DNA from: a virus
Length of the DNA: 64,000 nt
Direction: 5' to 3' (one strand)
IMG/VR virus record: IMGVR_UViG_3300023278_002893
Location: 62,001-126,000 of that record
In this document: positions 4,538-27,387 of the stretch, piece after piece
How the letters are laid out: each line of letters opens with the position of its first letter
Numbering within the stretch: position 1 is the stretch's first letter
Position numbers and translations under genes: made by a program
Notes under the pieces: model-generated
What the model saw: only the letters and a program-made list of their open reading frames with translations
The model's database searches: none
Told to the model about the DNA's origin: nothing

Positions 4538-5111
4538 GAAGCTCCCAGTCATTCTCTACGACCCTACGCACGTTCTTGAATCCTGCTCGCTCCATGCGAG
4601 GCTTAAAAGACTCGAACGTGTACATAGCCTTGTGCGCTCCCCACTCTGTGTACTGCCCTGGGTGGGGGACTTCACCGTCTGGCATACAATCCCTCTCCCA
4701 GTCAGGGTTGCCGGAGATCTTCTCCCAACCATCGGGACCGCCAGGGTAATCGGAAAATCCTCCAAACAACGCGATCATGGTCTCTTCAGTGGAATGAGTC
4801 CCATCTACATAAGCGTGACATAAAAAGTCCAAATCAGGCATCTTGAGCCTAATGATTCCACTTGGTTTCAAAACTCTATACCACTCCCTAAGGACAGCGC
4901 CCACCTCTGTGTAGGAGAAATGTTCAACCGTATGGGCAGAGTAAAGATCATCCACCTCGTTGTCTGATATCCAATCCAGATTACGAACGTCTGACTCCCT
5001 ATCAACATTACCCACCTTTACAGCATCAACGTGGTAATATCCGGGCTCTCCGTGCGGGCCAGACCCCAACTCTATACGAACAGGACTACTTGCTGACGTC
5101 AGGAACTGCAT
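4518..5111 (-). CDS. SAM-dependent methyltransferase (Methyltransf_11-like)
   Basis: This 197-residue protein has VRIELGSGPHGEPGYYHVDA at its N-terminus, where ELGSGP is the SAM loop and HVDA the strand-2 acid. DDLYSAHTVEHFSYTEV and LREWYRVLKPSGIIRLKMPD match the motif 4-6 region of Methyltransf_11 proteins often found in O-antigen clusters. The start overlaps the end of the Clp ATPase gene by 26 bases and has only a weak Shine-Dalgarno, so it may depend on coupling. Confidence 0.75.
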   Translation of the reverse strand: MQFLTSASSPVRIELGSGPHGEPGYYHVDAVKVGNVDRESDVRNLDWISDNEVDDLYSAHTVEHFSYTEVGAVLREWYRVLKPSGIIRLKMPDLDFLCHAYVDGTHSTEETMIALFGGFSDYPGGPDGWEKISGNPDWERDCMPDGEVPHPGQYTEWGAHKAMYTFESFKPRMERAGFKNVRRVVENDWELHVTGTK

Positions 5112-7068
5112 CTGATACTTTCTTTTTAGTAGTCTGCCTGAATGACAAGCCTTTCTTATCTTTGGACAGACTAACTGTTACCTTCGACCCCGCACCAACG
5201 TCCTCTCCCAAGATCGCCTTGGCAAGGGGGGTGTTAAGGAACTTCTTTACTGCCCTTCGCATCGGGCGAGCGCCGAACTTCTTGTCGATGCCTCGATCTA
5301 AGAGGAAGTTTTTGGCACCCAGATTGAAAGTAAGAACCAACCCTCGGGATTTCTTGACCTGCTCGTTGATCTCGGCGAGGAGAATATCCAGAATGTGCAT
5401 GTAATCTCCACGCTCCAGCAATCGGAAATGAATCACATCATCAACCCGGTTCAAGAACTCCGGTTTGAACTTCTTCTTCAGTGCGGCCGAGCGTGCCTTG
5501 GTAGTCTTGGTCTCGTCCGCCTCGTGCTCCCCACCAAACCCCATAGTCTTGCCTACATTATCTACTTCCTTAACGCCGATGTTCGAGGTCATGATAATGA
5601 AGCACTGCTTGAAGGAAACTTTCTTACCCCCCTTACTCTCCGTAAGAACACCATCATCGAGGATCTGGAGGATGCGCTCGTGAAAATTACCATGTGCCTT
5701 CTCGATCTCGTCAAAGAGAACAACCGAGAAAGGATTCTTAGATACTTCCTTAGTCAGATGACCACCCTCATCATACCCCACATACCCAGGAGGGGAACCA
5801 GTTAGTTTGGCTACCTCATGAGACTGCTGGTATTCCTGACAATCTATCCGCACAAGATGTGCGTCCAGAACCTCAGCGAGAGCCTTCGCAGCCTCGGTCT
5901 TACCTACACCTGTATTACCGGTAAGCAGGAAGCAACCTAGGGGCTCGTGGTCACGTTTAAGTCCCACCGAAGCTCGCTGGATAGCATCTGTCACCATCTC
6001 TATAGCCTCATCCTGACCAACAATGTGCTTCTTCAACTTGTCGGAAAGATTAAGTAGGGTTTCCTTAGGAACATCCTCAAATCTCTTTCTTTTAGAAGAC
6101 GCAGACTGGCTCTCTTCATTCCCCGCCGCTGACATTCTTCTATTGTTCTTAGTCTTAGATCGCTGTCTATCCTTGAAATCTGCACGGATCTTCTTCAGAT
6201 CGACATTCTCCAACTTGAGAAACGGATTATAATCTATAGCGATTTCATACAGCTCCTGTACCAGCTTAGCGGGCTTAGTGTGCTGCGTAACGCCCATAGT
6301 ATCCAACAGATGGAAGATATCAGCAAAGTCTTCGATGCACAGATGTACTATCAGAAGATGATAGCCGCTAATGGTCTCAAATGGCGTACCTCCCAACAGC
6401 AATGATGCGGTATCTTCGTCTGCTTCATACTGACGAATGTTCAATCCCACACCTATCTTCTTCCAACGGTGTCCAATCAGCTCATAGGGCACATCGTCTT
6501 TGCCCCCACCGCCCCCGCCCGGGCTATCCCTGAAGGGGTTATCGGGAGGTGATTCGTCCTGGGGACCATCTAAAGAGCCGATCTCATCATCATCAAAGAA
6601 GGGATTCCTAGGCCCCTCTACCGCATCCGGCGCGCGGGTAATAACCGCAGGGCCGAAGTCGGAAAGCGGAGGGTCCTGATCCCATAGAGAATTACTGGTG
6701 AGGGGACGAGCATCCTCATCCTCCCGCACAGTGGCTTCGATCTTCATTACATTGTTATCATTTATCATGATATTCTCCGGCAAAAACGCCGGACAATACT
6801 TATAGACCAACGACAACGCTTCGGCCCTAATCTCTTCGACCCTCGTATAGAGTTCTTTTCTCCTGCGAAGGTGGTAGAAAAAAGGTGAGGAATTTGCCAT
6901 GCAAGTTCCTAGCACAAAATCCTCATAAAACACCCGATACATGAGTCCCTTATCGGGGGAGAGCAACGATAACTTATCATTTACATCCCCATCAGGGTAT
7001 TCGAGGATCATGACATGGAAATCCGCAGACTCCAAAAATACCTTATGTGTAACATAAGCTTTGGACAT
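5086..7068 (-). CDS. Clp-type AAA+ unfoldase with one D2-like module and possible ClpP loop
   Basis: This 660-residue protein has a unique N-terminal half (1-330, with acidic and glycine linkers at 150-190) and one AAA+ module related to the second domain of ClpA/ClpB. Visible elements are Walker A GNTGVGKT (384-391), pore loop GYVGY (428-432), Walker B VLFDE (450-454), sensor 1 TSN (494-496), arginine finger FLNR (R541) and sensor 2 GARPMRR (599-605). TMGFGG (508-513) sits where ClpA and ClpX carry the IGL/IGF loop that docks on ClpP; ClpB lacks such a loop. A phage ClpP lies at 21010-21612, so the two may form one protease. Substrate choice by the novel N-domain is inference. Confidence 0.85.
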   Translation of the reverse strand: MSKAYVTHKVFLESADFHVMILEYPDGDVNDKLSLLSPDKGLMYRVFYEDFVLGTCMANSSPFFYHLRRRKELYTRVEEIRAEALSLVYKYCPAFLPENIMINDNNVMKIEATVREDEDARPLTSNSLWDQDPPLSDFGPAVITRAPDAVEGPRNPFFDDDEIGSLDGPQDESPPDNPFRDSPGGGGGGKDDVPYELIGHRWKKIGVGLNIRQYEADEDTASLLLGGTPFETISGYHLLIVHLCIEDFADIFHLLDTMGVTQHTKPAKLVQELYEIAIDYNPFLKLENVDLKKIRADFKDRQRSKTKNNRRMSAAGNEESQSASSKRKRFEDVPKETLLNLSDKLKKHIVGQDEAIEMVTDAIQRASVGLKRDHEPLGCFLLTGNTGVGKTEAAKALAEVLDAHLVRIDCQEYQQSHEVAKLTGSPPGYVGYDEGGHLTKEVSKNPFSVVLFDEIEKAHGNFHERILQILDDGVLTESKGGKKVSFKQCFIIMTSNIGVKEVDNVGKTMGFGGEHEADETKTTKARSAALKKKFKPEFLNRVDDVIHFRLLERGDYMHILDILLAEINEQVKKSRGLVLTFNLGAKNFLLDRGIDKKFGARPMRRAVKKFLNTPLAKAILGEDVGAGSKVTVSLSKDKKGLSFRQTTKKKVSDAVPDVSK

Positions 7069-11473: not shown

Positions 11474-12049
11474 CTAACTTACCAGAGATTCAAGCTTCTC
11501 AATTCTTTTTAGAGCACAATCCACACTGCTTTCGTTGTACTCCACCTGATTCAAAAACTTCCTAACAAAAGCACCCACATGATGAGCTGCGGAAATCCTA
11601 AGATCCCGAGGAGCATGGGTCAAACGTACTGTACTCCCCTCCAACCAAACATGTCTCATTTCAGGACCTTCTATACGATCTGGATCATTTTTCTCTACCC
11701 GGAAAAGATGGGCAACTATGTACCAATTAGTACTAAGTTTAGAATATCCCAATCGCCAGAAAAATAAAGCCCCTGTCGCATCCTCGTGAAAACAAAGTCG
11801 GTATTGACTATCTGTCGCAGGATCTGTATCCTCTTTAAGTATGAAAGGGTACCCAACCTCAAAATCCCTGAGCTTGTCCTCCAAGACTTTATAGAAATCT
11901 GTTACCCTTTCGGTCTTCGTGTTTATAGATTTGGAAAGATCTTCCAGTTTCTCTAACGCCACCTCAGTCTCCGACAGTTCCAACAAAATTCTCTTGTCGC
12001 GGTCACCGTCTATATACTTAGTTCGTTCTTCTTCTGTTTCGAATTCCAT
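11474..12049 (-). CDS. Hypothetical protein with coiled-coil N-terminus
   Basis: AAAAAGGAGG precedes ATG 12049. The first 65 residues of the 191-residue product are charged and heptad-like (LSETEVALEKLEDLSKSI), suggesting a coiled coil, followed by a mixed domain (LCFHEDATGALFFWRLGYS). It is the first protein gene downstream of the tmRNA. No family is recognised. Confidence 0.7.
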   Translation of the reverse strand: MEFETEEERTKYIDGDRDKRILLELSETEVALEKLEDLSKSINTKTERVTDFYKVLEDKLRDFEVGYPFILKEDTDPATDSQYRLCFHEDATGALFFWRLGYSKLSTNWYIVAHLFRVEKNDPDRIEGPEMRHVWLEGSTVRLTHAPRDLRISAAHHVGAFVRKFLNQVEYNESSVDCALKRIEKLESLVS

Positions 12050-12083: not shown

Positions 12084-12120
12084 AAATAAATGCCCAGAAT
12101 TCTGTTGCCAGGGACTGGGC
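12084..12120 (-). terminator. Weak terminator or 3' processing hairpin after tmRNA
   Basis: GCCCAG (12120-12115) pairs with CTGGGC (12097-12092) and is followed by ATTTATTT. A second small stem CCAGA-GGAA-TCTGG follows. The U-run is interrupted and the loop is 17 bases, so a 3'-end processing stem of the coding piece is as likely as a terminator. Confidence 0.4.
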
Positions 12121-12153
12121 GACCCCCGCATACGTTATAGTAGTATCAGTACT

Positions 12154-12252
12154 TTACGCTGCAAATGCAAAAGACTCTACGAGGGTCTCGGTAGAACCGA
12201 ATTCCTTCGCGGCCAAATCTCTTGCGTACTCTACTAGAGAGTTAGTTTTGCC
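12154..12252 (-). other. tmRNA tag reading frame (32 codons plus TAA)
   Basis: Nine bases after pseudoknot 1 the resume codon GGC begins a frame that reads GKTNSLVEYARDLAA, then 8 further residues, and ends TLVESFAFAA before TAA at 12156-12154. The first 12 bases (GGCAAAACTAAC) encode GKTN, as I recall for the Bacillus subtilis tag GKTNSFNQNVALAA. The C-terminal Ala-Ala fits the ssrA degron seen by Clp proteases. At 32 residues it is long for a tag, and residues 12-15 (DLAA) look like an internal degron end. Confidence 0.85.
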
Positions 12253-12261
12253 AATTGAAAC

Positions 12262-12297
12262 ATTTAGGATTTTTAACGAGGCCATCCTAAATCCTCG
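12262..12297 (-). other. tmRNA pseudoknot 1
   Basis: CGAGG (12297-12293) pairs with CCTCG (12281-12277), and the loop segment ATTTAGGAT (12292-12284) pairs with ATCCTAAAT (12270-12262), up to nine pairs. The crossing stems make an H-type pseudoknot immediately upstream of the resume codon, as in all tmRNAs. GGCCTCGTTAAAA also resembles the same position in Escherichia coli tmRNA. Confidence 0.9.
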
Positions 12298-12363
12298 GGC
12301 TGCGTTCTCTACTTATTCCGTCCAGTCGATTCCAATTCTCCCCCAGTAATACTATACACACTC

Positions 12364-12458
12364 TGGTGGAGGAGGGGGGTGTCGAACCCCCGTGCTGATA
12401 CCGTCGTCAGAAGAGACCGAATAACAGCCATCTTGTACCTATACTCTCTTGTACAGGT
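12364..12458 (-). other. tmRNA acceptor piece (T-arm, acceptor 3' strand, CCA)
   Basis: The piece likely begins near an 8-bp hairpin (ACCTGTAC-AAGAGA-GTATAGGT, 12458-12437, one GU pair), runs through the P2 strand and T-arm, and ends with genome-encoded CCA at 12364. Encoded CCA followed by 19 bases and the coding-piece 5' end is the hallmark of a permuted gene. The exact 5' end is unknown. Confidence 0.85.
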
Positions 12459-12469
12459 TCTACATATTT

Positions 12470-13132
12470 TCATCTCTTTAGACATAACTTCGGGTTGTAA
12501 AGCAAATTCCCCAAATTTTCCTCAATACGAACATCTGACCAACTGTCATTCCCCCTATCAAAAAAATCAAGATTTTTTAAGACGTAGCTGATAGCATCTT
12601 CGTATTCCCGTACGTTAATAATTTCACTCCCCAACGTAAATAGAAGGGGGCCAGCGCCGAGATGTTTACAACCCACTGTATAATTACAAATCTCTGCTAG
12701 TTGCATAAGACGCGGATGAATTATTTCCAATTCAATGTATTGTTGATGGTCTTTTTCTTTGGAACACATAGATTCAGATGGGGATTGTCTCTTTAATGTT
12801 AATGCACGTTTTGATTTTTTAATATAATCAGCAGCTCTCTTAAAAACGCCCCAAGTGAGTAGGGACGGCGTGGATTTTGGATCGTAGAGAGCGAAGTATG
12901 CCTGATAATAAAATACTAATCCACTCAACTCAAGAGCCTGGGAATTCAACTCAAAAGCCTGAGAAGTCAACTTAAGAGCCTGGTAATTTCTGCTCAGAGA
13001 CATGATTGCTACTATCAGAGATAATATCGCCACAAAAATGGCGACCCATGTTCCCATTTCTTCGGGCATGTTTAACTCCCCCAATCCCCAAGGAATTGAT
13101 ACATTATAAAACTCTGCCAAGATGTCACACAC
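12470..13132 (-). CDS. Membrane-anchored protein with heptad repeats
   Basis: I accept the GTG at 13132, with AAGGAG eight bases upstream; ATG 13069 behind GGGGAG is an alternative. The 220-residue product has one membrane helix (WVAIFVAILSLIVAIMSL, about 29-46) followed by repeated QALKLTSQAFELNSQALELS-like heptads, then a mostly helical soluble domain. No family is recognised. It directly precedes the tmRNA, whose transcription may start inside or before this gene. Confidence 0.7.
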   Translation of the reverse strand: MCDILAEFYNVSIPWGLGELNMPEEMGTWVAIFVAILSLIVAIMSLSRNYQALKLTSQAFELNSQALELSGLVFYYQAYFALYDPKSTPSLLTWGVFKRAADYIKKSKRALTLKRQSPSESMCSKEKDHQQYIELEIIHPRLMQLAEICNYTVGCKHLGAGPLLFTLGSEIINVREYEDAISYVLKNLDFFDRGNDSWSDVRIEENLGNLLYNPKLCLKR

Positions 13133-19528: not shown

Positions 19529-20114
19529 ACTCTGCAACTCCTCTGAAAGTCTTACGATGTAAAGGGGTAATCCCATGTACCATTATAGCCTGACGGTGTT
19601 CTTCTGTTCCGTATCCCTTGTTGCGGTCCCACCCATACTGAGGGTGATCCGTATGCATATCCTTCATGTATTTATCCCTGATAACCTTCGCAAGAATACT
19701 AGCAGCTCCAATACATTTTACTATATCATCCCCACCTTTTATACATTCTTGACTTATGTGAGGGGGAAGTTCCTGAAGAGGTCTATTACCATCTACAAGT
19801 ATTAAGGTGTTGTCTGGAGAATCTGCCATCTTATAAACATTCTGTGCGGAGGTTCTCATCGCCAAAAGGGCTGCGTTGAGTATGTTAATGTCATCAATTA
19901 CTCCGACACCTATTCCCTGAATATCATGAACACAGTTCTCCATTATCAATTCCGCAAGATGCTCTCGTTTCTTAGCAGATAATTTCTTACTATCCCTGAT
20001 TTCTCCCCACCAATCAAAATGCTCTGTCGGTTCCAGGACTGCGGCGGCGAAAACATCCCCCGCCAAGCAACCACGGCCGACTTCATCCACACCTATAACA
20101 ACCTGATCACTCAC
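19521..20114 (-). CDS. rnhB: Ribonuclease HII
   Basis: VIGVDEVGRGCLAG near the N-terminus holds the catalytic Asp-Glu pair (DEVGRG), and LILVDGNRPL and IGAASILAKVIRDKYMKD supply the remaining acids of RNase HII. It cuts RNA in RNA-DNA hybrids and single ribonucleotides. There is no ATG near the conserved start; GTG 20114, overlapping the upstream stop with AGGA ahead, is the best choice. Confidence 0.88.
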   Translation of the reverse strand: MSDQVVIGVDEVGRGCLAGDVFAAAVLEPTEHFDWWGEIRDSKKLSAKKREHLAELIMENCVHDIQGIGVGVIDDINILNAALLAMRTSAQNVYKMADSPDNTLILVDGNRPLQELPPHISQECIKGGDDIVKCIGAASILAKVIRDKYMKDMHTDHPQYGWDRNKGYGTEEHRQAIMVHGITPLHRKTFRGVAEYV

Positions 20115-20553
20115 CTTCTTTGTCCTCAGGAGTCCAGATGGCAATCTCCTCCTCACCCGGACGACCATGCACCGACTCACCTACCGACTCAAGAGGGGCG
20201 ACGACCGGTATCTGGGCCGTTGCGGTAGTTTTGAACGCCGCAGGATTTGCCACTTCTACAAGAGGTTCGATAGATCCTCCCGAAGGAGGGGCAGGTACAG
20301 GACTCTGCTGACCATCAGGAAGAACGCCCATTTTCATAAGCTTACGCATCAGCCTGCGCGTCTTGGGATCCACATGGGGCACATAGACAGCATCAGCAGA
20401 GCACCTATTAACGAACTCACCCCCGAAGACGTAGCGTCCGCAAGACCTACGCTTCTTGATTGAGACCTTAGACCCCTTAGCACTACATACAGCACCCGAT
20501 AGCCTGGAACAATCAACACAGCGAACCTTATTTCCGCCTTCAAACTTGGACAT
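20107..20553 (-). CDS. Hypothetical protein with N-terminal cysteine cluster
   Basis: The first 50 residues hold VRCVDCSRLSGAVC and RRSCGRYVFGGEFVNRC, a Cys-rich cluster that probably binds zinc or another metal. The rest is basic then Pro/Ser-rich and ends acidic. No family is recognised. The stop overlaps the RNase HII start (GTGA). Confidence 0.6.
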   Translation of the reverse strand: MSKFEGGNKVRCVDCSRLSGAVCSAKGSKVSIKKRRSCGRYVFGGEFVNRCSADAVYVPHVDPKTRRLMRKLMKMGVLPDGQQSPVPAPPSGGSIEPLVEVANPAAFKTTATAQIPVVAPLESVGESVHGRPGEEEIAIWTPEDKEGE

Positions 20554-21008
20554 TATTCATCCTCTACCGTTATATGAACGTTTGACTTCCTATCCTCACC
20601 CTGATCGCCCAGAACCTGCTCCGGCGTCCCCGACTTTACCCCATAATTAGCAGCCGGGCGTGCAGTGGGATTAAATCTCCGCACTGCCCTCTCCTGTTCT
20701 TCCGGAGAAGTAACTTTGTCCAAAGGTAAACTATTCTGTGCCTGCTCCCACAGCGCATCCTTCTTAGAATCCACCTCATCCGCGGGCTCAGACGCTTTCT
20801 TCTTATTCTTTGCTCCCCGCGGGCGGCCCCTGCCTCTCTTCTTCTTAGCGACTGTGGGAGTGGGAACATCCTCCCCCGCCTCGTCCGATCGGAGCTCTAC
20901 GTAAATCTCACGTTTAGCAATCAGACGACCGAGTGTATCCTCCGTCTCCTCTATAGCATCATCCAGCTCGGAGATTCTGGTATCTAATGTTTTGATTATA
21001 TCACGCAT
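20553..21008 (-). CDS. Coiled-coil protein with AT-hook-like segment
   Basis: Start chosen at ATG 21008 (MRDIIKTLDTRISELDDAIE), with AGGA four bases upstream, just after the ClpP stop. Residues 1-50 form a likely coiled coil. KKKRGRGRPRGAKNKKK in the middle contains GRPRG, an AT-hook-like core that binds the minor groove of AT-rich DNA. The C-terminus is disordered. A DNA-associated role is inferred. Confidence 0.6.
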   Translation of the reverse strand: MRDIIKTLDTRISELDDAIEETEDTLGRLIAKREIYVELRSDEAGEDVPTPTVAKKKRGRGRPRGAKNKKKASEPADEVDSKKDALWEQAQNSLPLDKVTSPEEQERAVRRFNPTARPAANYGVKSGTPEQVLGDQGEDRKSNVHITVEDE

Positions 21009-21009
21009 C

Positions 21010-21612
21010 TTATCCTCTCGTACTCTTAGTCTGGATTTTATCAACAATTCCAAACTCCATTGCTTCCTCCGCAGACATCCATTTGTCTCTGTCGTAGAGG
21101 GATTTACACTCTTCCACCGTTTTACCCGTGTTCAGTGCTAAATCTTTCATCAAGATCTCATTAACGGTTTCCATCTCACGCATCGTGATCTGGACATCGG
21201 TAATATCGCCCTTCGCTCCGCCAGATACCTGATGCATCATAATACGTGCTCTCGGCATAGAATAACGCTTACCTTTTGTACCTCCCGCCAAAAGAAAACA
21301 CCCCATGCTAGCAGCAGACCCAACACATAAAGTATGAATGTCGGGCTTGATGTATTCCATCGTATCATATATCCCAAGACCTGCGGACACCGACCCACCA
21401 GGTGAGTTGATGTACATAAATATGTCCTTGTTGGGATCGTCATTCTCCAAAAAGAGGAGTTGACCTATGATAAGATTGGCCATCGCATCGCTAACTGGGG
21501 TGCCTAGGACTATAATCCTATCTCTCAATAACCTTGAGTAAATATCGTACGCTTTCTCACTATTGCCATCCTTTTCGATAACAACCGGCATTGGAATTCC
21601 TGCTTCAGACAT
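21010..21612 (-). CDS. clpP: ClpP-type serine protease
   Basis: The 200-residue product matches bacterial ClpP in length and motifs: MYINSPGGSVSAGLGIYDTM, GSAASMG with catalytic Ser102, MMHQVSG with His127, and YDRDKWMSAEEAMEFGIVDK with Asp176. So the Ser-His-Asp triad is complete. ClpP forms a 14-mer barrel and needs an AAA+ partner; a likely one is at 5086-7068, although host ClpX or ClpA could also be used. With the tmRNA it makes a coherent degradation route. Prohead processing by ClpP-fold proteases is an alternative, but the full bacterial-like motif set argues for true ClpP. Confidence 0.93.
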   Translation of the reverse strand: MSEAGIPMPVVIEKDGNSEKAYDIYSRLLRDRIIVLGTPVSDAMANLIIGQLLFLENDDPNKDIFMYINSPGGSVSAGLGIYDTMEYIKPDIHTLCVGSAASMGCFLLAGGTKGKRYSMPRARIMMHQVSGGAKGDITDVQITMREMETVNEILMKDLALNTGKTVEECKSLYDRDKWMSAEEAMEFGIVDKIQTKSTRG

Positions 21613-22954: not shown

Positions 22955-23614
22955 TTATAGCATAATCCTAGCATTATCTATTTCTAAATCACGCACTTCT
23001 GAAACCAGAATAAAGCCAGGAAGTAACTCACCCGTCGTAAGATAATACAGATAGTCTAAAAAATCAAAGGCGGCTTTGGTGGCTACCAAATCATCTCTTC
23101 GAAAGAAACAAACAGCTTGCTTTGACCAACCTTTCTGCCCCGGGGCCAGAAGACAAATAATATCTATGTTAGTATTATTCTCCTTACTATTCAAACTATC
23201 AGCCACCCGTATTTGAACCTTTGCAAGATCTTGTGAAATCAGTAATATAAGAATTGCTGGTAGGTCACTAGAATCTAAGAAATCTGGTAAAGTTCTCAGA
23301 GATAGAAATTTTCCAGTAGCTTCTTCCATCACATTTTGTAACCACCACTCTGTGTAAGAGGTAGTCCGTTTTTTATGTTCTGCCAGTATCCACTGACTCT
23401 CTTTCGTCTCTATTAGAAAATCAGGCCTTTTACCAATATCTGATATATCTTTTGGATCATCTATATACAAATAAACTTTGTCTCCAAACCATTTTTCTGA
23501 CCAGGGTGGGGGGTTTTGTTGTTTCTTCAACTGCCTCTTATGGTTTTCCCTTTTTCTATAACGATCTTCTTTCGACTTTCTCGACAATTTCCGCTTCTTC
23601 TTATTTACCATCAT
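22955..23614 (-). CDS. PD-(D/E)XK nuclease-like protein
   Basis: ATG 23614 overlaps the ribonucleotide reductase stop. The first 40 residues are very basic. GKRPDFLIETKESQWILAEHKK has the P-D...(E)-x-K-like spacing of PD-(D/E)XK nucleases (Asp of RPDFL, Glu and Lys of AEHKK). The rest is alternating strand and helix. Could be a homing-type or DNA-processing nuclease. No close family recognised. Confidence 0.55.
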   Translation of the reverse strand: MMVNKKKRKLSRKSKEDRYRKRENHKRQLKKQQNPPPWSEKWFGDKVYLYIDDPKDISDIGKRPDFLIETKESQWILAEHKKRTTSYTEWWLQNVMEEATGKFLSLRTLPDFLDSSDLPAILILLISQDLAKVQIRVADSLNSKENNTNIDIICLLAPGQKGWSKQAVCFFRRDDLVATKAAFDFLDYLYYLTTGELLPGFILVSEVRDLEIDNARIML

Positions 23615-26600
23615 CACTCACATCCGCTATGACCGCAATCGGCGCACTTCACACAACCACTCTCCATAATCAATTTCTTAGACTGACAGGAGCGGCATCT
23701 TGAAACCTCTAAATACTCTTCGTCTGTAATATACTTCTTCAGTACCCGCAGGATCGCTTTACTGAACGCAGTTACCTCCCCATCACACTTCGTGAGCTGG
23801 GAAACCAGCGCGTTGAGTGGAGCCCCGTGTCTAAGACTGGTGGATAAGAGACGGGTGACCATTCGATGTTCATCATTCAGAAGGAGCTGAGCTACGTTTT
23901 TGATTGTCCAGGTGTCCTCACCTGTACCAATCACGAGGTTATATCTACCGTGCCCATTCCTCCTCAGCATACCACCTGTGCGGGATGAGGATATTTCGAT
24001 ATGTTCCTCCGGGAAACAGAAAACCTCATAGGGTTTCCCATGGAGAAGACCAACCAAAACCTTCCACTTCTCGCCCTTTACACTAACCGTATGAATGTCA
24101 CAATCCAGATCATCGGGCCGTACAGGGGCATTCATCGTTACCACCGTTTTTGGCCTGGAACCTGGATTCTTGGACGGATTCTTGAGGGTCTCCAAGATCT
24201 GAGTCTTGGAACCGTCCCGATATACGGCGGTGGATTTGATATTACTATCGAAAGCACCTATATAAGCACCCATGATATCGTCTACAGTCGCTTCAGGCGG
24301 GAGATTGATGGTATTATGAGATACTATACCAGATACAAGATAGTTATGTGATTCTTCAACCTCCACATCATACATTGAGATTTTGCCTGAATTCTCTATT
24401 GAAGAAATCTTCATCACCTTGCCCAAAATTTCTAATCCTAATTCTTCTGCCAATTCCCGAGTACAATGTTGGGATCTTCTTTGTCGTAAATTACGGACAG
24501 CAGAATAACGAGGATGGTCCGATTTGATAGGCAGTGTGAACACATCTTCATGCTCGAATGCAACCAGGTGTGCTCTACCGCCATTAACTTTGGGAGAACA
24601 TTTGTGTAACTCTAAAGGTGTGATGGTTTGCATTAGTTCATCAGAAACCATTACGGAATGAACGTAATAGCCGTGAGACTTAACTAGTTTCTTACCACAA
24701 TAAACACGGGGCTTTCCAAAAGAACGAAGCATTTCTGCGACTTGATACGCCAGTGCTTGGGATTTACCTTCGTACACAACCAAACCCCTTCCCGGCCGCA
24801 AATAACCATCTAAAGTAAGTCCTTCGATAAAATGTCTCTTTTCAGCAAAACTTCCTTGTAAAATCTGATCAGGAACTCTCTTATCATCACTCCTATAACC
24901 AATCAATTCTCTAAGATATCTAACTAATACACGAGAGGTAAGTCTGTGCTCAACCACACCCGTCCGCGAATCTATATGAACTTCTGGAATAACGCCAAAT
25001 ACATCTTCAGCGAGTGTGTTGTAGAAATTCCCCACATTCCCTGAATCTTTTTCGTATAAAGAAACCTTACCAGTGGATTCCTCCAAATGACCATCCGCAG
25101 CCAACATTCCTAAAAGTTTAGCTAGATAAACCGACATTTTATCCGGTAAATTTATAAAGTTCGCATTAGTTTTCCTATCAAAATCTATATTTATTGTACG
25201 AGAATTCTCAACATCAAAAACCTCAAAATCGTCGTTGATAAATATCAAATCATCGGGAACTAGATCACCCAATGTTTTCCAACCCCCGATAGTTTTTACT
25301 TTATGAGAATCAGATGCGCCAGTTATGGATGATCCGTTTTGCAGAACAAGACTGGTTGCATCTTTCTCACCGGCACTGTAATGGGAAAGTACTTTACGAT
25401 GAATACCCTTCTCATCTATAACCATCAGATCCTGAAGCGGTTCCCCAAAAACATCAACACCGCGTGCGTTACCGCACTGCTCAATAGGTAAAATTCCTCT
25501 ATTAGTATTGATCAAAGTACCCCCAGCTAAACATTTACTCACACTAGAATCAACCTGCTCAGAAAACACCGCCTGCATCGCCAAGTGGTCTTGCCAGCTG
25601 ATGTCCTGAGCCTGCTCGAAGTACTTTGGCACCCTCTTATGTCGCCTTAGTTCCCGGAAATCGTGGTTGTATTCCGCAAAGTCAATACCGCGAGTCTCCA
25701 TCCATTCTAAAAATGAAGGGCAACCATCCATAATAGTTCCGATATTGGAATTCCGCTGATACGCCATAGCAAAATAAGGCTCGCACCCAGAAGAATAACC
25801 GGTAATAGTTCCAGTTGTTCCCGTAGGAGCTTGCGTAAGGATAGTGACATTCGCAATACCATGGGTCTTTAACTCCTTCTCCAGATCAGGTCTCTCCTTG
25901 AGAAGCTGCTGGATGAACTTACTCTTCTTGAACTTCTTGAAGTCGTAAGCTGGGAATGGACCAATCTCTTTGGCCATATCAATGGACGCTTCGTACGCTG
26001 TGTGCTTGATGAACTTGAGAATCTTCTTAGCCATTCCGCGGCCAGAATCTTGACTATAAATGTAATCCTTATCGGTGCGCATGGACATGCGGATTAACGC
26101 CTCGTGCATACCAATGGTTCCCAAACCTATGCGACGCTCTTTCTGGGTGTTCTCATCAATCTTCTCAACTCCAGTCTCGTTGAGAAGGGTAATCCAGTTA
26201 AGACTACGCACCAAAACAAAGACTGCTTCCCTCAACCCATCCCAATCCACCGAACCGTCCTCATTTACAAACTCAGGAAGGACAAGACTGGACAAGCAAC
26301 ACACTGACCATGGTGGAAGAACCTGCTCTGCACAAGGATTGGTTGCGTCTAACGGATTAAAATATTCCCCATTGTGATAAGCACGTGCCCTATCTACGAA
26401 AAAGATACCAGGGCACCCATCCTCCCATGCATTGGTACAGATACGTCTAAACCACTCATATGCGGTAAGGTGATAGGAACTCTTGACAAGTTTTAGATGC
26501 TTAGTATTCCTAAAAGGAACCTCATTCGTAGCCTCATGTAGTGCTATTTCTTCATCTGGCGCGCACACTGAAATGGGAATAACAGTCTCCACGCCGGGCA

Positions 26601-27387
26601 TTGTGGGATCATACATAGTCAATTCATAATCCCAGAGCGCCCAGGTCTTTTCTTCCCAACTCAACTTCCACGGCTTCTTCGACTGACGCTTAACCTGGCG
26701 CATAAAATTATCTGAAATAGCGACAGAAACATTGAATGTCTGCCATGGATAGGGGTTAGTCCATTGCCACTGCTCGAACATACTCTCATCGGTGATCACT
26801 GCAAACTTGCGAAGATTCTCCCAATTGCCTCGGGACTTCTTCGTAATAAACTTCAGAAGACCGGGGTGGGTATCATTCAGAATACCCATATTAGCGCCGC
26901 TACGATTACCTCCCTGCTGAATATTAGAGGAAGCGTATCCCATAGAAGTAATGAAACCTTCAGGGCCACTTGCGCGCGCATTGGCACCCTTACACCAAGC
27001 GCCTGCCGGGCGCAAGCTGGAGAAGTTGATCCCCGTGCCTCCCCCATGTGCCTGGATATGGAAGTGAATCCGCTGGGCCTCAGAGATCTCCTCCCGGCTG
27101 TCCCCAATACCTAGGACAAAACAATTGAACATGTTCTTGATCCCCGTACCTGCTTGGGCAAGAGGACGTCCTGCGTACATGATCTTCTTCTCTTCGCACA
27201 GGGTCTGCGCGAGGGCTCTTCGGTGGTCCTCATCGTTCTGATAAATATAGTTATTTGTACGATTAAATGTTTCAAAAATATCCTTCTCGACCGGGAGACC
27301 GGAGTCGTCTTTGAGGTAATAACGGGAACCCGCAATAGACTCGTGAGCGGGATTAGTGAAGTAAGTTTTAGCTGTGTACTTACCCAT
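23614..27387 (-). CDS. nrdJ: Class II (B12-dependent) ribonucleotide reductase with intein
   Basis: This enzyme reduces ribonucleotides to deoxyribonucleotides for phage DNA. The host part shows MFNCFVLG (first redox Cys), GGTGINFSSLRPAG, NPCAEQVLPPWSVCCLSSLV (substrate site and thiyl Cys region), QAPTGTTGTITGYSSGCEP, and a C-terminal CRSCQSK...CVKCADCGH zinc/redox tail. No NrdB-like partner gene is near, and the layout fits AdoCbl-dependent NrdJ. Residues 619-1025 are an intein, so the mature enzyme is about 850 residues. AAGGAGG precedes the start. Confidence 0.9.
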   Translation of the reverse strand: MGKYTAKTYFTNPAHESIAGSRYYLKDDSGLPVEKDIFETFNRTNNYIYQNDEDHRRALAQTLCEEKKIMYAGRPLAQAGTGIKNMFNCFVLGIGDSREEISEAQRIHFHIQAHGGGTGINFSSLRPAGAWCKGANARASGPEGFITSMGYASSNIQQGGNRSGANMGILNDTHPGLLKFITKKSRGNWENLRKFAVITDESMFEQWQWTNPYPWQTFNVSVAISDNFMRQVKRQSKKPWKLSWEEKTWALWDYELTMYDPTMPGVETVIPISVCAPDEEIALHEATNEVPFRNTKHLKLVKSSYHLTAYEWFRRICTNAWEDGCPGIFFVDRARAYHNGEYFNPLDATNPCAEQVLPPWSVCCLSSLVLPEFVNEDGSVDWDGLREAVFVLVRSLNWITLLNETGVEKIDENTQKERRIGLGTIGMHEALIRMSMRTDKDYIYSQDSGRGMAKKILKFIKHTAYEASIDMAKEIGPFPAYDFKKFKKSKFIQQLLKERPDLEKELKTHGIANVTILTQAPTGTTGTITGYSSGCEPYFAMAYQRNSNIGTIMDGCPSFLEWMETRGIDFAEYNHDFRELRRHKRVPKYFEQAQDISWQDHLAMQAVFSEQVDSSVSKCLAGGTLINTNRGILPIEQCGNARGVDVFGEPLQDLMVIDEKGIHRKVLSHYSAGEKDATSLVLQNGSSITGASDSHKVKTIGGWKTLGDLVPDDLIFINDDFEVFDVENSRTINIDFDRKTNANFINLPDKMSVYLAKLLGMLAADGHLEESTGKVSLYEKDSGNVGNFYNTLAEDVFGVIPEVHIDSRTGVVEHRLTSRVLVRYLRELIGYRSDDKRVPDQILQGSFAEKRHFIEGLTLDGYLRPGRGLVVYEGKSQALAYQVAEMLRSFGKPRVYCGKKLVKSHGYYVHSVMVSDELMQTITPLELHKCSPKVNGGRAHLVAFEHEDVFTLPIKSDHPRYSAVRNLRQRRSQHCTRELAEELGLEILGKVMKISSIENSGKISMYDVEVEESHNYLVSGIVSHNTINLPPEATVDDIMGAYIGAFDSNIKSTAVYRDGSKTQILETLKNPSKNPGSRPKTVVTMNAPVRPDDLDCDIHTVSVKGEKWKVLVGLLHGKPYEVFCFPEEHIEISSSRTGGMLRRNGHGRYNLVIGTGEDTWTIKNVAQLLLNDEHRMVTRLLSTSLRHGAPLNALVSQLTKCDGEVTAFSKAILRVLKKYITDEEYLEVSRCRSCQSKKLIMESGCVKCADCGHSGCE
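24313..25533 (-). mobile_element. Intein with LAGLIDADG-type endonuclease
   Basis: The insert runs from Cys619 (CLAGGTLINTNRG) to Asn1025 (HNYLVSGIVSHN) and is followed by Thr as +1 residue, in the conserved SK-TINLP sequence of the reductase. Splicing blocks A (Cys), B (SITGASDSHKVK), F (YDVEVEESHNYLVSG) and G (SHN) are present. LLGMLAADG and FIEGLTLDG are the two LAGLIDADG helices with an acid in each. At 407 residues it is a full-size intein with an apparently intact homing nuclease. Confidence 0.92.

Follow-up and report, generated by a model that had tools for sequence, protein, structure and literature searches.

The locus described here, and the clade of large phages to which it belongs, make testable one answer to the question why phages carry tmRNA genes, namely that the tmRNA routes proteins to a protease of the phage; the clade combines a conserved, longer-than-usual tag peptide with a linked phage Clp protease. 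The window, i.e. the whole stretch of 64,000 nucleotides analysed, comprises bases 62,001-126,000 of a virus record of 297,725 bases (IMGVR_UViG_3300023278_002893; G000). The tmRNA gene spans window positions 12431-12092 on the minus strand, flanked by open reading frames at 12470-13132 and 11474-12049 (Table 1), and a promoter and terminator scan found none. An initial annotation had put a circularly permuted tmRNA at 12121-12458. The locus was correct, while the left edge at 12121 cuts into a PK2-like pseudoknot that reaches ~12092.

Table 1. Parts of the permuted tmRNA gene and the Clp genes in the window
Feature	Window position	Strand	Sequence or size	Basis and remarks
Acceptor piece	12364..12431	-		Read from sequence, RF04321 alignment, pairing across five relatives; 5' end approximate
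P2 3' strand	12429-12425	-	GGCUG	Complementary to CAGCC at 12302-12298
T-arm	12391-12375	-	GGGGG-TTCGACA-CCCCC	Read from sequence
Acceptor 3' strand	12374-12368	-	CTCCTCC	Read from sequence
Discriminator	12367	-	A	
CCA	12366-12364	-	CCA	Encoded in the window copy
Intervening spacer	12345..12363	-	19 nt	Removal expected during processing
Coding piece	12092..12344	-		Acceptor 5' strand, P2 5' strand, PK1, tag frame, PK2-like pseudoknot; 3' end approximate
Acceptor 5' strand	12344-12338	-	GGGGGAG	Read from sequence
P2 5' strand	12302-12298	-	CAGCC	Pairs with GGCUG
Pseudoknot 1 (PK1)	12265..12297	-	CGAGG/CCTCG and TAGGA/TCCTA stems	Both stems pair in 5/5 distinct sequences
Tag frame, resume codon GGC to TAA	12252-12154	-	GKTNSLVEYARDLAAKEFGSTETLVESFAFAA, 32 aa	Read by eye; homologous frames from ARAGORN
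PK2-like pseudoknot	12092..12127	-	GGGGGTCGCCCAGTCCCTGGCAACAGAATTCTGGGC	Putative; by-eye reading of alignment
ClpA/ClpC-like unfoldase, single-ring	5086..7068	-	660 aa, phage-specific N-terminal half	Pfam AAA_2 6.7e-51, ClpB_D2-small
ClpP peptidase	21010..21612	-	200 aa	PF00574 3.5e-73

The arrangement of the two pieces agrees closely with what had been read by the initial annotation. Its CCA ending at 12364, ahead of an acceptor 5' strand starting at 12344, is exact on the minus strand, and all seven of the acceptor pairs it claimed can form, G3(12342)-U70(12370) among them. The P2 strands are complementary, and PK1 and the tag frame lie in the second piece, again as proposed. In the relatives described below the spacer measures 14-20 nt, and a GGCAACAGAA-type loop of the PK2-like pseudoknot is common to them (alignment, by eye).

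A covariance-model search, suggested by the same annotation as a check, matched the locus to RF04321, the merged permuted-tmRNA model of Rfam, scoring 78.3 bits where the cut-off is 47 (E = 2.6e-13 over the whole window and 2.9e-16 in the record search). Every clade member exceeds this cut-off, the relatives scoring 56.3-98.5 bits. None of the lineage models (RF01849 alpha, RF01850 beta, RF01851 cyano) reached its own gathering cut-off; the best single-lineage score at the window locus was beta (64.8 bits, cut-off 84), and the relatives obtained 55.9-67.1 bits from these models, also below gathering. ARAGORN, the second check suggested, missed the window copy, though in three relatives it called the homologue as permuted ('tmRNA*'), bearing a tag of the same type. 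Judged from sequence, the identity of the RNA as a phage-encoded circularly permuted tmRNA is near certain. The clade adds a divergent branch to the permuted tmRNAs, one in which the window copy is overlooked by a standard annotation tool.

Relatives in IMG/VR were found via two genes of the window, for the unfoldase and a glycosylase (G001, G003, G002 and G004, the last with 295,848 bases), and G008 joined the clade through a tmRNA pattern scan. G001 and G003 are identical across the 700 bases compared around the tmRNA, and the covariation set comprised five distinct sequences (window, G001, G002, G004, G008). When the first 25 kb of the window and the tmRNAs were compared by BLASTN with 50,697 phage records, no relative was recovered, only short matches that lay around the T-arm in the cases inspected; a match to a Brevundimonas jumbo phage was rejected as a relative, consisting of a tRNA array without a tmRNA match. 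A neighbouring hypothetical protein used as a search query gave no match.

Segments of equal length were compared for the acceptor stem, T-stem, P2 and both PK1 stems, giving 27 pairs and 135 pair cells. Standard pairs occupied 135/135 cells (100%), compared with 79.5% after shuffling and 43-48% when the registers were slid, the segments being hand-picked and thereby biased toward pairing in the named register. Changes on both sides were seen in 14 of the 27 pairs across the tRNA domain, P2 and PK1, including four of the five pairs of each PK1 stem, and acceptor pairs 5-68 and 6-67 occur as three and four different Watson-Crick pairs, respectively. Each of the five distinct sequences keeps 7/7 acceptor pairs, with G3-U70, and forms all P2 pairs. 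The initial annotation had named loss of acceptor pairing in relatives among the observations that would speak against it; the pairing is conserved throughout. A chance origin of the structure is excluded by this covariation across five distinct sequences. In three distinct relatives the acceptor piece ends in GCA or CAA rather than CCA, and CCA addition would therefore be required there, which fits with the tRNA nucleotidyltransferase gene carried by the phage (G000:44945-46426).

The same data bear on whether the gene could be a functionless fragment of a host tmRNA left by imprecise excision, or a mis-binned host segment. Host tmRNA genes are often integration sites and fragments of them occur in prophages (PMC9004378). 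The gene in the clade, however, is complete, carries compensatory changes in five diverged phages and sits inside a conserved block of phage genes, and the record holds replication genes of phage type as well as a tRNA array (about 29 tRNA genes, close to both record ends). The covariation already refutes a host fragment unless the whole clade is an assembly artefact, and we assign this origin a very low probability. Two large open reading frames were also observed in the record: a minus-strand frame of 4,554 aa (G000:C1:160365-174029), and one for the ribonucleotide reductase large subunit (window 23614-27387; 1,257 aa), which is over the usual length, matches in two stretches and possibly carries an insertion or fusion.

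The tag encoded by the clade is long, with 28-32 aa (GNSLVEYATRLHAKELVSKDVEQVAIAA in G001/G003, GTSLMEYATRLHAEELVSEDVEQVAIAA in G002, DNSSLMSYAKALHVRELSEKETLVEAEAIAA in G004 and QTLTDYVAAMHKGELAIKETLAPAKTLTA in G008, the last frame read by eye); in a tmRNA database the commonest tag length is 10 aa (PMC11915505). None of the five distinct sequences has an interrupted frame, and the peptides share the internal pattern L..Y..L....E. In 10/10 pairs the peptides were more similar than when equal numbers of substitutions were scattered at random (P 0 to 0.026), with alignment gaps set on the peptides and hence a slight bias toward this result, whereas the other two frames contain eight stops each and scored lower in 9/10 pairs. 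The tag thus evolves under constraint at the peptide level. Four of the five tags terminate in AA. The tag of G008 (L059:1219-1305, minus strand) ends in LTA instead while retaining the internal motif, and the internal peptide may therefore outweigh the C-terminal degron. An amphipathic-helix reading of the tag was unsupported on testing.

An intact frame under such constraint argues against a decoy role, in which the RNA would tie up SmpB or ribosome rescue of the host and tagging would not matter. A precedent for a decoy does exist in the tag-less tmRNA of mycobacteriophage DS6A, the frame-less form of which inhibits the endogenous tmRNA in E. coli (PMC11915505), and no match to SmpB (PF01668) was found in any clade record, some of which are fragments. 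On balance a decoy appears very improbable. Without SmpB in the phage, the tmRNA would depend on the host for this factor.

Two genes on the same strand as the tmRNA suggest where tagged proteins may go. The ClpP gene, ~8.6 kb upstream, aligns to PF00574 with 245.8 bits over positions 2-181 of 182, and motifs read by eye (SAASM, MMHQ, DRDKWMS) supply the catalytic Ser, His and Asp. The unfoldase gene, ~5 kb downstream, matches the D2 domain of ClpB, ClpA and ClpC in the PDB, and its relatives retain Walker A, a GYVG pore loop and a (V/L/M)GF loop. The latter we take to be the site where ClpA and ClpC contact ClpP, placed by comparison with ClpC. From its sequence, the protein has an AAA+ Clp D2 module with a pore loop and a putative ClpP-docking loop. 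The first AAA ring is missing, and the N-terminal half is conserved and matches no known family; structure prediction from three sequences gave a mean pLDDT of 34.7. ClpP was found in G000, G001, G003, G004 and G008, and the order and strand of unfoldase, tmRNA and ClpP are kept in G001, G003, G004 and G008, the G002 contig stopping before ClpP. This linkage within the clade counts as one ancestral event. Directly after ClpP lie two small genes (148 and 166 aa; window 20107-21053) that are conserved in the clade without a Pfam match and are possible adaptors.

Other phages were examined for the same combination. A strict pattern retrieved the permuted architecture in 65 IMG/VR stretches, nearly all of which held up when read. 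G023 (201,732 bases), which has few genes in common with the clade across the stretches compared, carries a permuted tmRNA with the tag ANTSKFGTAKVSMGRGFRFGTRSAEAVAA, a ClpP gene 4.3 kb away and a full two-ring ClpA. In G027 (L099, G027:16013-16850) a ClpP-family gene directly adjoins the permuted tmRNA, which ARAGORN does not call. Unrelated phages, G023 and G027, thus also pair a permuted tmRNA having a long G1-to-stop stretch with a nearby ClpP. G030, with a 30-aa tag, has its ClpP 33 kb off and the match broken by one stop. G024 has a long-tag permuted tmRNA without ClpP. Overall, ClpP occurred in 4/5 long-tag and 1/11 short-tag permuted phages (Fisher P=0.013, clade counted once, post hoc, mixed contig sizes), or P=0.12 with large contigs only, and in about 2/9 standard-form long-tag phage contigs. 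A wider link between tag length and ClpP is suggestive only, being post hoc and weak.

Long tags as such proved not to be unique to the clade, an idea rejected when a looser pattern found other phage tmRNAs with long tags, both permuted and standard. Further phage contigs carry them, as do some bacterial genomes; most of these tmRNAs are of standard form, and several of the phage ones are permuted. When genome_contigs was scanned for host tmRNAs with long tags, 23 stretches came up, the majority of standard form, some of ambiguous form and none with the clade tag; by pattern, long tag frames were seen in Peribacteria, Babeliales and Chlamydiae genomes (L106, L107, L114, L121, L126). A second phage group (L093, L100, L101) has a standard-form tmRNA with a long basic tag (...GNKNRVRALGFKNRLAAKRFGFKGRKLALAA), and two of these contigs also contain a large Clp-type ATPase.

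Two-piece processing, alanylation, SmpB-dependent entry into stalled ribosomes and tagging are established tmRNA biology, and the locus is almost certainly a functional tmRNA gene, circularly permuted, in a jumbo phage. Cleavage of its precursor by RNase P at 12344 and 3' processing at 12364 would leave an acceptor piece and a coding piece that would stay joined via the acceptor stem and P2. Alanine would be charged through G3-U70, host SmpB would bring the tmRNA into stalled ribosomes, and the 32-residue tag would be added after the alanine. Tagged proteins might then be delivered to the phage single-ring ClpA/C-like unfoldase and ClpP. As the phage carries its own Clp pair that could read the tag, it may run its own tag-and-destroy line, and delivery to the phage Clp proteins would therefore provide ribosome rescue on broken mRNAs and product control regardless of host proteolysis. 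That tagged proteins go preferentially to the phage's own Clp machine is put forward tentatively, as a serious possibility short of probable. More tentative still is the general form of the proposal, in which some large phages possess a private tag-and-destroy pathway: their permuted tmRNA would encode a long degron specific to the phage, and their own ClpP would recognise it together with a dedicated single-ring ClpA/C-like unfoldase, with only SmpB and ribosomes taken from the host.

The main rival shares the functional permuted tmRNA and differs in the last step, with host ClpXP, ClpAP or Lon degrading the tagged proteins, the phage Clp pair acting in virion maturation or host takeover instead, and the long tag reflecting the preference of a host protease. 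We consider this evenly balanced between true and false. Other roles have been proposed for phage ClpP and Clp ATPases (PMC6102473, PMC7824862), most permuted-tmRNA phages have short host-like tags and no ClpP, and the AA end present in most clade tags is as in host tags. Long tags are, moreover, matched to the host-type protease Lon in Mesoplasma and Mycoplasma. Set against host proteolysis are the clade-wide linkage of the tmRNA with ClpP and an unfoldase bearing a putative docking loop, the recurrence of ClpP near the permuted tmRNAs of G023 and G027, and G008, where the internal motif outlasts the terminal AA.

The Mycoplasma and Mesoplasma tags resemble those of the clade in being long and are adapted to a particular protease; there, a one-piece cellular tmRNA is combined with Lon, whereas the phage has a permuted RNA and a candidate ClpP partner of its own. 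With the bacterial alpha, beta and cyano forms (RF01849, RF01850, RF01851) the window shares gene order, acceptor stem, T-arm, P2, PK1 and tag layout, yet only the merged RF04321 matches it, the lineage models remaining below their cut-offs. Among phages, a two-piece tmRNA was published for the OM43 phage Melnitz, and ARAGORN suggests one in 53 of 18,146 phage genomes, mostly of aquatic phages (PMC9004378). Together with the 65 IMG/VR stretches, these cases run against the initial annotation, which was aware of no well-described phage example; its reading of a permuted phage tmRNA stands, its claim of novelty does not, and the long conserved tag and the phage Clp unfoldase and protease had escaped it. 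Melnitz and the other two-piece phages are like the window in having a permuted phage tmRNA in two pieces with no phage SmpB reported in the text available (PMC9004378). The Melnitz tmRNA is described there as a relative of alphaproteobacterial tmRNA under the control of a glutamine riboswitch, whereas in the window no lineage model passes, the tag has 32 aa, and ClpP and the unfoldase are linked. Phage-encoded Clp proteins (ClpP/Clp ATPases), as in the window, are known from the Agrobacterium jumbo phage Atu_ph07 (PMC6102473) and the Sinorhizobium jumbo phage AP-J-162, the latter also with a tmRNA (PMC11242549), but those papers describe no tmRNA-Clp gene link of the kind seen in the clade. 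Two-piece phage tmRNA as such is thus already known, and what appears new, as far as found in the literature searched, is the divergent clade with its long conserved tags and its linked ClpP and single-ring unfoldase.
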